The notes beneath the pieces were generated by a model, which was not told the DNA's origin, ran no database searches, and saw nothing but the letters and a program-made list of their open reading frames with translations. Of a DNA stretch of 64,000 nucleotides, positions 8,932-21,707 are shown piece after piece (position 1 is the first letter of the stretch; the number at the start of each line of letters is the position of its first letter). The stretch is taken from the NCBI GenBank assembly GCA_023473425.1, contig JAMCYG010000021.1:16839-80838 (forward strand), read 5' to 3'. The translations under genes were made by a program, and so were the position numbers. Source of the stretch: Candidatus Martarchaeota archaeon (GTDB taxonomy: Archaea > Micrarchaeota > Micrarchaeia > Micrarchaeales > Micrarchaeaceae).

Positions 8932-9141
8932 ATGTCGAAGATACCTAAAAATGCAGTAAAAAAGCTTGTAAGGAAGAAAGGAATAGTAGTCAGCGATGAG
9001 GCGGCCGGTGCCATTGCAAAGATACTGGAGGCAAAGGCAGCCGAAATAGCCAAGTATGCTGTAGCCAGGGCTAAAAAGAAGGGAAGGAGTGCCATACTAG
9101 GCGAAGACATCGATACCTACAGGATAAAGCACGGCGATTGA
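8932..9141 (+). CDS. Archaeal histone
   Basis: 69-aa histone fold: VVSDEAAGAIAKILEAKAAEIAKYAVARAKKKGRSAILGEDIDTYRI. Confidence 0.92.
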   Translation: MSKIPKNAVKKLVRKKGIVVSDEAAGAIAKILEAKAAEIAKYAVARAKKKGRSAILGEDIDTYRIKHGD

Positions 9142-9697
9142 TACGAAGGTATATGAGTCACGGGGCCCTGCTGGCGAAATAAGGCTGGACTACTCTGTAC
9201 GCGGCAAGGAATACACTGTCCTCCTTGAGCATATCGGCGAGGGCGTGCTCTATTCAAGGTTCGATCGTGACGGTATAATCCTTTCGCGTTCCCTGGAAAA
9301 GGCAGCCGGCACTTATCCAAGCATGATGAGTGCCAATGGTTTCATGCTACCTGATGCAGAAGGGGTCGTCGAGGCTGTCAATGTGGACTACGTTCCTGTA
9401 AAAATAAACAGGAAATGTCCATCGTGCGGTGCGCCATCCCTTGAGAGGCGCGTATCTATAGCTGAAGGGAGCAAGGAGATTGTGCCTGCTGTGCCTAGAT
9501 ACAAATGCGCATCCTGCGGGCAGGAGTGCTATCATATCAGCGACGAGTATCTGGCTGATCTGGTTAGTGATGGAAAAGAACTGTTCTCGGATGCCGAAAA
9601 GGAGCAGCTAAAGAAAAATCCCGAGGAGTTCATGAATGAGCTGAAGGAATATATTTCACGGATATTCGCCATGAAAAACATAAAAAGGATTATATAA
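9137..9697 (+). CDS. Zinc-ribbon hypothetical protein; start unclear
   Basis: Open frame with CPSCGAPS...CASCGQEC; frame is open back to the histone stop with no ATG/GTG/TTG before the internal GTG at 9245; possible ATT start overlapping the histone stop. Confidence 0.55.
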   Translation: MDTKVYESRGPAGEIRLDYSVRGKEYTVLLEHIGEGVLYSRFDRDGIILSRSLEKAAGTYPSMMSANGFMLPDAEGVVEAVNVDYVPVKINRKCPSCGAPSLERRVSIAEGSKEIVPAVPRYKCASCGQECYHISDEYLADLVSDGKELFSDAEKEQLKKNPEEFMNELKEYISRIFAMKNIKRII

Positions 9698-19592: not shown

Positions 19593-20840
19593 CTACGCCT
19601 CTTCCCCCTCCACTTGCCCGTCGGCGTCGGATGAATGCTCTGCATTGCCGGTGCTAACGCCGAACAGCTCCCTATCCAAGGCATTCTTAGTCTTCTCGGG
19701 AGGGTATCTAAGCTTTATGAGCTTTGTATGGCCGCGTATGCCTGTGCTCGAATCGAACGAGTCTATTATACCCTGCATGACAAGTTCTGAGAGATACTTT
19801 CTGTACCATCTCTCGCTCTTCGGGCTCTTGTGCAGGCCAGCGGATATGCCTTTGTATCTGTTGTATATCTCACCGCTGAATATGTACGTGTCCACTCCAT
19901 CGACCAGCTTTTTGTAGGTGCCACCGCTCTGCGTCAGTTGTGCTATAGCGTATAGCACAAGCTTCTGGTGCTCCGGCAGCGTAGCTATTACATCGTATAC
20001 TATGTCGCTCTCGGACAGCTTTATTGCATCCTCCGCTTCCTTCTGGGTTATCTTGGTGAGCCCTCTCTCCTCCGCCATCTCCCCCGATCTTGTAAGTATC
20101 TTGAGCGAGAAGCGCGCGTCACCTCCCTCCTTGTAAGCCTTTGATGCTATTATGTGCAGCAGGTCATCAGATATGACATTCTCCTTGAAGCCCTTCATGA
20201 CCCTATCTTTTAGTATCATGTATATCTCGTCAGCATTGTACGGTGGGAAGACGAGCTCGGTTTCGTAGAGTGCTGAAAGGCTTCGTGGGTCAAGTTCCTC
20301 CTTGAATGACACTCTGTTTGATATCCCAATTATCGTCACGCCACCTGCTCTTATATCCGCATTCATCCTGGTTAGCGTGTATACGAGGTCATCCAGGTCC
20401 CTGACTACGTCTATCTCATCGAGCACAATAACCAGTATCTTATTGTCTTCTTCGACCCAGCTGGCTATCCTTTCATATAAGTCAACAGCCCCATAACCTC
20501 TCCTCGAATAAGTGGGGAGGTGGTCAGATATCACCTTGCTTAATACTCTGAACCTGGAATTGTATATCCTACAGTTCACGTATGATATCTTTGCCTTGCC
20601 GTTCGGTATCTCACTTACCTCTTTGAGCACATACTGTGCGCAAGAGGTCTTACCCGTGCCGGTCTTGCCGTATATAAATAGATTCCTGCCCCTCTCACCC
20701 TTGAGCGCCGGGGCTATTGCACGCTCGATGTTGTTTATCTCTTTCTCCCTGTACCTGAGCTTCTTAGGTATGTAGTGTGGCGAAAGGACTTCGCGATCGG
20801 CGAATATTGCAGACTCCCCAAGCATGTCTGTAAGTTGCAT
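19593..20840 (-). CDS. cdc6: Orc1/Cdc6 replication initiator
   Basis: LFIYGKTGTGKTS Walker A, VIVLDEIDVV Walker B, C-terminal winged helix. Confidence 0.95.
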   Translation of the reverse strand: MQLTDMLGESAIFADREVLSPHYIPKKLRYREKEINNIERAIAPALKGERGRNLFIYGKTGTGKTSCAQYVLKEVSEIPNGKAKISYVNCRIYNSRFRVLSKVISDHLPTYSRRGYGAVDLYERIASWVEEDNKILVIVLDEIDVVRDLDDLVYTLTRMNADIRAGGVTIIGISNRVSFKEELDPRSLSALYETELVFPPYNADEIYMILKDRVMKGFKENVISDDLLHIIASKAYKEGGDARFSLKILTRSGEMAEERGLTKITQKEAEDAIKLSESDIVYDVIATLPEHQKLVLYAIAQLTQSGGTYKKLVDGVDTYIFSGEIYNRYKGISAGLHKSPKSERWYRKYLSELVMQGIIDSFDSSTGIRGHTKLIKLRYPPEKTKNALDRELFGVSTGNAEHSSDADGQVEGEEA

Positions 20841-20943: not shown

Positions 20944-21261
20944 TCATATCATCTTCGCTGCCTTGAGCTTTCCGATGTCCATCTGGCTGTATCTCCACAT
21001 TATGTCGCCGCGCTCATCGCCTTCTACCACCCACGGCTTCACTATAACGACATCACCTTCCTTTATCCAGAACCTCCTCCTCAGCCTGCCTGGTATCGAG
21101 CATAACCTGTCCTTTCCGTCGGTGCAGCGCACAAGGAACCTGGCAGCGCCAGCTATCTTCGAAACAGTGCCAAGTACCTCTCCTTCTTTCGGCCTTTTGA
21201 GCCTCTGCGACTCATCGTTTTCCGGTGCGCCTCTCCTCTTATCAAAATTGCTCTTCCTTAT
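20944..21261 (-). CDS. eif1a: Translation initiation factor aIF1A with apparent ATA start
   Basis: Hand translation (I/M)RKSNFDKRRGAPENDESQRLKRPKEGEVLGTVSKIAGAARFLVRCTDGKDRLCSIPGRLRRRFWIKEGDVVIVKPW...; no ATG/GTG/TTG between the upstream in-frame stop and the conserved EGEVLGTV; AGGTG-N5-ATA. Confidence 0.85.
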   Translation of the reverse strand: MRKSNFDKRRGAPENDESQRLKRPKEGEVLGTVSKIAGAARFLVRCTDGKDRLCSIPGRLRRRFWIKEGDVVIVKPWVVEGDERGDIMWRYSQMDIGKLKAAKMI

Positions 21262-21284
21262 CGAAACACCTGGTCAACATCACA

Positions 21285-21707
21285 TCAGTAGCTCTTTACT
21301 CCATATCGCGCACCGCACGCTTCGCATACCAGCTGCAACATGCCTCTGCCTCCAGATTCCAAATGCGTGTCTGGTTTGTGGCATTCCCTGCATATCACGT
21401 ACGTTTCAAAATATGTGTGCATGCGCTTGTTTAGCTCATCGTTCTGGAACTTCCCGTTTATTATCAGCCTCTGGTCCTCGAAGCTGGTGGGCACAGCAAG
21501 CTCCTTGCTAAGGAATTTACCTATCTCCTGTGGCGTCCTTCTCGCCCTATCCGCTATGACCCCTATATTCCTTATTATCGTCTTCGTGCCCTGTATAATA
21601 GATTCCACATCAGGTATTTTGAAGTCTATAGACTCGGCACTCAGATGAGGCATGCGTTCGAATGCCCTGTCAAGAAGTTTTAAATAATCATCATTCTCTT
21701 CGCTCAA
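21285..21707 (-). CDS. eif2b: Translation initiation factor aIF2 beta subunit
   Basis: LSKELAVPTSFEDQRLIINGKF..; CRECHKPDTHLESGGRGMLQLVCEACGA zinc ribbon. Confidence 0.95.
   Translation of the reverse strand: MSEENDDYLKLLDRAFERMPHLSAESIDFKIPDVESIIQGTKTIIRNIGVIADRARRTPQEIGKFLSKELAVPTSFEDQRLIINGKFQNDELNKRMHTYFETYVICRECHKPDTHLESGGRGMLQLVCEACGARYGVKSY

Follow-up and report, generated by a model that had tools for sequence, protein, structure and literature searches.

A putative AUA start codon behind an optimally spaced Shine-Dalgarno motif in the aIF1A gene of Micrarchaeota

The gene for translation initiation factor aIF1A in the Micrarchaeota assembly studied here (G000; 734,731 bases, 27 contigs) has no canonical start codon ahead of its conserved core. 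The best reading of the locus, which we consider probable, is a genuine but weak AUA start that is driven by a Shine-Dalgarno (SD) motif and limits the amount of aIF1A. The features are collected in Table 1, where the window is the whole stretch of 64,000 nucleotides that was analysed.

Table 1. Features of the aIF1A locus, with positions in the window, and other conserved genes of G000 with near-cognate starts
Feature	Position	Strand	Start codon	Remarks
aIF1A coding sequence	20944..21261	-	ATA (proposed)	105 codons from ATA plus stop; PF01176 and NF003084 matches
Proposed AUA start codon	21259..21261	-	ATA	Aligned with ATG/ATA/ATT of relatives; 25 codons 3′ of ATA under selection
Shine-Dalgarno motif AGGTG	21267..21271	-		5 nt 5′ of ATA; GGTG-N5 is the peak spacing in two whole genomes
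TCG codon 5′ of ATA	21262..21264	-		TTG at the same codon in G001, a genome of the same genus
In-frame upstream stop TGA	21274..21276	-		Shuts the aIF1A frame 4 codons 5′ of ATA
aIF2beta gene, directly upstream	21285..21707	-	TTG	Start after GGTG-TAGCG; stop 23 nt 5′ of ATA
Downstream AAA+ ATPase frame, reads like Orc1/Cdc6	19593..20840	-		Frame only; outside the feature; start approximate
Lhr-like helicase, G000			ATA	Name by alignment resemblance
Threonine-synthase-like gene, G000			ACG	Name by alignment resemblance
DUF763-like gene, G000			CTG	Name by alignment resemblance
Mrp/NBP35-like gene, G000			CTG	Name by alignment resemblance
Pilin-like gene, G000			ATT	Name by alignment resemblance
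TBP gene (second paralogue, TBP-B), G000			ACG	PF00352 match

On the minus strand, the aIF1A frame reads TGA CCA GGT GTT TCG ATA AGG AAG AGC AAT TTT GAT AAG AGG AGA GGC GCA. As the original prediction had claimed, no ATG, GTG or TTG was found between this TGA and the OB fold, and the first canonical codon, a GTG at index 47 when the frame is counted from stop to stop, already belongs to the fold. The stop-to-stop frame comprises 109 amino acids, or 105 when counted from the ATA. The product matches PF01176 (eIF-1A, OB fold; 76.9 bits, cut-off 30.2) and NF003084 (NCBIfam 'translation initiation factor IF-1A'; 112 bits, cut-off 91), and its score of 95.9 against TIGR00523 is slightly below the cut-off of 102.9. 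A basic N-terminal tail, IRKSNFDKRRGAP...RLKRPKEGEV, precedes the fold, is kept in relatives and is under purifying selection, in agreement with the predicted 105-residue aIF1A with a basic N-terminus. The gene is adjacent to aIF2beta in 89 of 89 loci checked. The two mostly lie no more than some 30 nt apart, and the frame of aIF1A reaches into the 3′ end of aIF2beta in some relatives.

The distance between GGTG and gene starts was surveyed in G000 and in Candidatus Micrarchaeum A_DKE, whose complete genome was used with 72 kb masked. In these genomes GGTG shows a sharp peak at 5 nt before ATG, TTG and GTG, with 87 cases observed against 4.7 expected for ATG in G000, 30 against 1.5 for TTG and 10 against 2.0 for GTG. 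As a measure of chance, about 0.45% of in-frame codons inside genes are preceded by GGTG at exactly this distance. The AGGTG-TTTCG-ATA geometry claimed for aIF1A is indeed present, and its GGTG-N5 spacing is the one favoured genome-wide by canonical starts. The 3′ end of the 16S rRNA was sought in the fetched contigs and not found; therefore, the anti-SD sequence was inferred from the GGTG signal itself. The genome-wide excess of ATA at GGTG-N5 (14 against 5.3 expected) was considered as a sign of widespread AUA starts and rejected, since ATA is equally common at other in-frame spacings. This indicates that AUA is a rare start rather than a general one.

Subsequently, aIF1A was compared across the Micrarchaeota family of G000 (78 genomes) and its sister family (about 73 genomes). 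In most of the 78 the gene starts with an ATG that is aligned with the ATA of G000 (N-termini IRKSNFDKRRGAP in this genome and MRKSGVDERRGAP in G028). The ortholog alignment, named beforehand as a possible refutation of the ATA start, placed the relatives' ATG at the ATA position and none further upstream. At least 11 of the 78 genomes, from six genera, have no usable canonical aIF1A start, with AUA in five genera and AUU in one. GGTG-N5 before the ATA recurs in five genera. Besides G000, the ATA group contains G012 (AGGTG-TTTGA-ATA), G005/G030/G097 (GGTG-ATTGC-ATA), G020/G094 (GGTTG-N5-ATA) and G096 (GGTG-TTTGT-ATA), while G015/G074/G076 share GGTG-GTAAT-ATT. In G012 an in-frame TGA stop lies immediately 5′ of the ATA, which excludes an upstream start there. 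In G096 an ATG first appears 9 codons past the aligned position, at which its own relatives have an ATG start. Three further genomes (G008, G091 and G075) are likely near-cognate cases, though each retains a poorly spaced TTG or GTG in the frame. Since the same pattern is seen in independent genomes, the aIF1A start cannot be put down to an indel or substitution confined to this assembly. Near-cognate aIF1A starts numbered zero in the sister family (about 73 genomes). On a tree built on aIF2beta and the aIF1A fold, the start-codon state changed at least 7 times when the three likely cases are counted, with gain and loss indistinguishable by count.

Four genomes of the same family read TTG-ATA at this place. 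In G001, the sequence is GGTG-TTTTG-ATA, and the TTG is situated only 2 nt after GGTG. At this distance TTG shows only a weak enrichment (4 observed against 1.5 expected), which suggests that ATA is the better start even in the relatives that keep the TTG, and that the change of TTG to TCG in G000 would matter little.

The codons following the ATA are conserved as coding sequence. Between G000 and G001, the 25 codons 3′ of the ATA differ by 12 synonymous changes (14.5 sites) and 5 nonsynonymous ones (60.5 sites), corresponding to a dN of 0.09 with saturated dS. A dN below dS was also observed in genera g5, g15, g18 and g20, with a weaker effect in g15. This strong purifying selection indicates that the 25 codons are translated, and it argues against a start inside the OB fold, which would leave them unselected. 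The central claim of the original prediction, that aIF1A starts at the ATA, is thus supported by the alignment with the relatives' ATG, the optimal SD distance, the selection 3′ of the ATA and the recurrence of AUA or AUU in other genera.

The tRNAs were examined in one strain. G000 encodes an initiator-type tRNA-Met(CAU) with A1:U72 and a GGG:CCC stem, and also an elongator tRNA-Ile(UAU) (L134 4641-4715 (-), contig C8). A dedicated AUA initiator was considered and rejected because the tRNA-Ile(UAU) lacks initiator features and the initiator-like tRNA carries CAU. The simplest decoding is therefore that Met-tRNAi reads the AUA start with a mismatch at the third position. ATA is by far the commonest Ile codon in G000 (9829 occurrences, compared with 1531 for ATT and 1877 for ATC). 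In archaea AUA is usually read by a modified CAU tRNA, from which the tRNA-Ile(UAU) found here differs.

Near-cognate starts are not confined to aIF1A. With conserved genes defined as reciprocal best hits between G000 and A_DKE, such starts were observed in about 1% of the conserved genes of these two whole genomes, with the same SD geometry and in genes of mixed functions, suggesting that the machinery tolerates these codons generally. In G000 there are 7 such genes among 522, aIF1A included, and in each an SD-like motif precedes, by 5 nt, a near-cognate codon with one mismatch (Table 1). About five of 526 were found in A_DKE: ACG in TBP (TBP-B), an Rrp42-like and a cobalamin adenosyltransferase-like gene, one CTG and perhaps one ATC (names other than TBP by resemblance). 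A first list of 41 startless G000 genes was set aside, as most entries arose where the alignment ran past the gene into non-coding sequence upstream. Under a stricter rule 9 genes remained, from which aIF1A and four others were accepted; inspection of the first list contributed two more, TBP-B and the pilin-like gene. Where gene finders accept only ATG, GTG and TTG, aIF1A will be missed or shortened in these genomes, as will roughly 1% of their other conserved genes.

Some additional observations were made alongside this survey. A conserved frame at 9128-9697 (+) of the window has no canonical start near the start of homology, and a possible ACG lies at 9143, 6 nt after GGCG. Three more G000 genes, which resemble a glycosyltransferase, DXR and HIT, have a possible ATA start 5 nt after GGTG (C10 9879 (-), C16 8546 (-) and C1 400 (+), respectively); in all three, a TTG or GTG that lacks a good SD is also present in frame further upstream. 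Most genomes of the family encode TBP in two separate genes of about 105-130 codons, each with one TBP repeat, instead of one two-repeat protein. The single-repeat matches in G000 are at C4:13040-13285 (-) and C5:12030-12275 (+), the second paralogue has an ACG start in both G000 and A_DKE, and G011 has an additional two-repeat TBP of 185 codons.

Five control genes were compared with aIF1A, using the 30 best-scoring genomes for each except aIF2beta. Near-cognate starts were absent from aIF1 (0/30, all 30 relatives having ATG where it was expected), TBP (0/30, mostly the first paralogue), aIF2alpha (0/29) and aIF6 (0/30). In the same family, 2 of 88 aIF2beta genes have an apparent near-cognate start, CTG in L077 (G100; GGTG-TTACG-CTG) and ATT in L021 (G006; GGTG-ATTTA-ATT). 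The difference between aIF1A (11/78) and the pooled controls (2/196) gives p = 3e-5 when related genomes are counted as independent; by genus, 6/27 for aIF1A against 2/27 for aIF2beta is not significant (p = 0.25). Among near-cognate aIF1A genes, 9 of 13 have a GGTG close to the start, compared with 7 of 56 AUG ones (p = 9e-5, kinship not corrected), an association that is partly circular because the SD had helped to place some of the near-cognate starts. It is consistent with compensation of a weak codon by a strong SD.

Combined, these results suggest how initiation may proceed. After aIF2beta terminates 23 nt upstream, or upon direct recruitment of the 30S subunit, AGGUG would pair with the 3′ end of the 16S rRNA and hold the subunit so that AUA is placed in the P site. 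The initiator tRNA-Met would then read AUA despite the mismatch at the third base, giving Met at position 1. The strong SD would offset the weak codon, and initiation would happen at a reduced rate, by which aIF1A may be kept low relative to aIF2beta translated from the same mRNA. The purpose could be to limit dosage, and feedback through the stringency of start-codon selection may be involved as well.

It may also be that the weak codon has no regulatory meaning, and that a strong SD simply lets a lineage tolerate the decay of AUG to AUA, ACG, CUG or AUU. This neutral drift is a serious contender, though somewhat short of an even chance, and it is in line with the mixed functions of the roughly 1% of conserved genes concerned in G000 and A_DKE and with the two aIF2beta cases among 88. 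However, aIF1A is affected more often than the five control genes, and the codon persists in g5, g15 and g20, with several pairs at dS ≥ 1, even though AUA is only one substitution away from AUG.

Regulation of the gene by its own product is possible but more tentative. Here, aIF1A would raise the stringency of start selection and thereby repress its own AUA, forming a feedback loop like that of bacterial infC, in which IF3 controls its own gene via AUU or AUC (PMC5472188). Start-codon selection on the archaeal 30S subunit involves aIF1, aIF1A and aIF2 (PMC7531240), and the repeated changes of the near-cognate state in aIF1A, together with its excess over the pooled controls, are consistent with such a loop. 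In contrast, AUG suffices in most relatives, and the start type is shared with genes that have no role in fidelity, such as the Lhr-like helicase, the Mrp/NBP35-like, DUF763-like and pilin-like genes and TBP. Furthermore, the main discriminator against non-AUG starts in Pyrococcus and Sulfolobus is aIF1 (PMC6237735), which starts with ATG here. An extension of this idea, in which the whole near-cognate set (AUA, AUU, ACG and CUG with optimally spaced SDs) is tuned by aIF1A as a feedback sensor whose level sets the stringency and thus the output of the set, itself included, seems rather unlikely.

A sequencing or assembly error that masks a TTG start in G000 as TCG is very improbable. The TTG of G001 at that codon speaks for it, but the restored TTG would follow GGTG at 2 nt, a spacing with weak enrichment compared with the 30 against 1.5 at N5, and in five other genera the start is near-cognate and TTG is absent from that place. 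Synthesis of aIF1A without a start of its own, by frameshifting or readthrough from aIF2beta into a fusion protein, is suggested by the closeness of the two genes and their overlapping frames in some relatives, but it can hardly be right, because stops close the aIF1A frame just upstream here and in G012, so that both a shift and readthrough would be required, and the conserved SD at N5 would have no purpose.

Returning to the preferred reading, a weak SD-driven AUA start, several known systems can be compared. Archaeal SD-led initiation, described for AUG, GUG and UUG (PMC7531240), shares the GGTG-type SD and its spacing with the genes found here, whereas AUA, AUU, ACG and CUG are outside that set, and the literature searched yielded no account of archaeal genes that start at AUA or AUU. 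In eukaryotes, BZW1 and BZW2 (PMC5823381, also eIF1 and eIF5) are likewise stringency-setting factors made from suboptimal starts, but there the weakness lies in the AUG context during scanning, in contrast to the SD-led near-cognate codon of aIF1A. The GTC start of sigR in the sigR-rsrA operon of Streptomyces (PMC5472188) is also a rare start in a two-gene operon with a product scarcer than that of its neighbour. That case concerns a regulator pair and was shown experimentally, whereas aIF1A and aIF2beta are initiation factors and the scarcity is inferred; even so, its stoichiometry may be as close a precedent as infC. Like aIF1A, infC is an initiation-factor gene with a near-cognate start and a third-base mismatch to the initiator anticodon (PMC5472188), and AUU itself is used by one genus here. 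Unlike infC, aIF1A is not homologous to IF3, its start is mostly AUA, the near-cognate codon occurs in some lineages only, other genes share such starts, and feedback is only plausible. An archaeal initiation-factor gene with recurrent near-cognate starts would represent an independent counterpart of infC and, if true, would make self-adjusted start-codon stringency in archaea testable.
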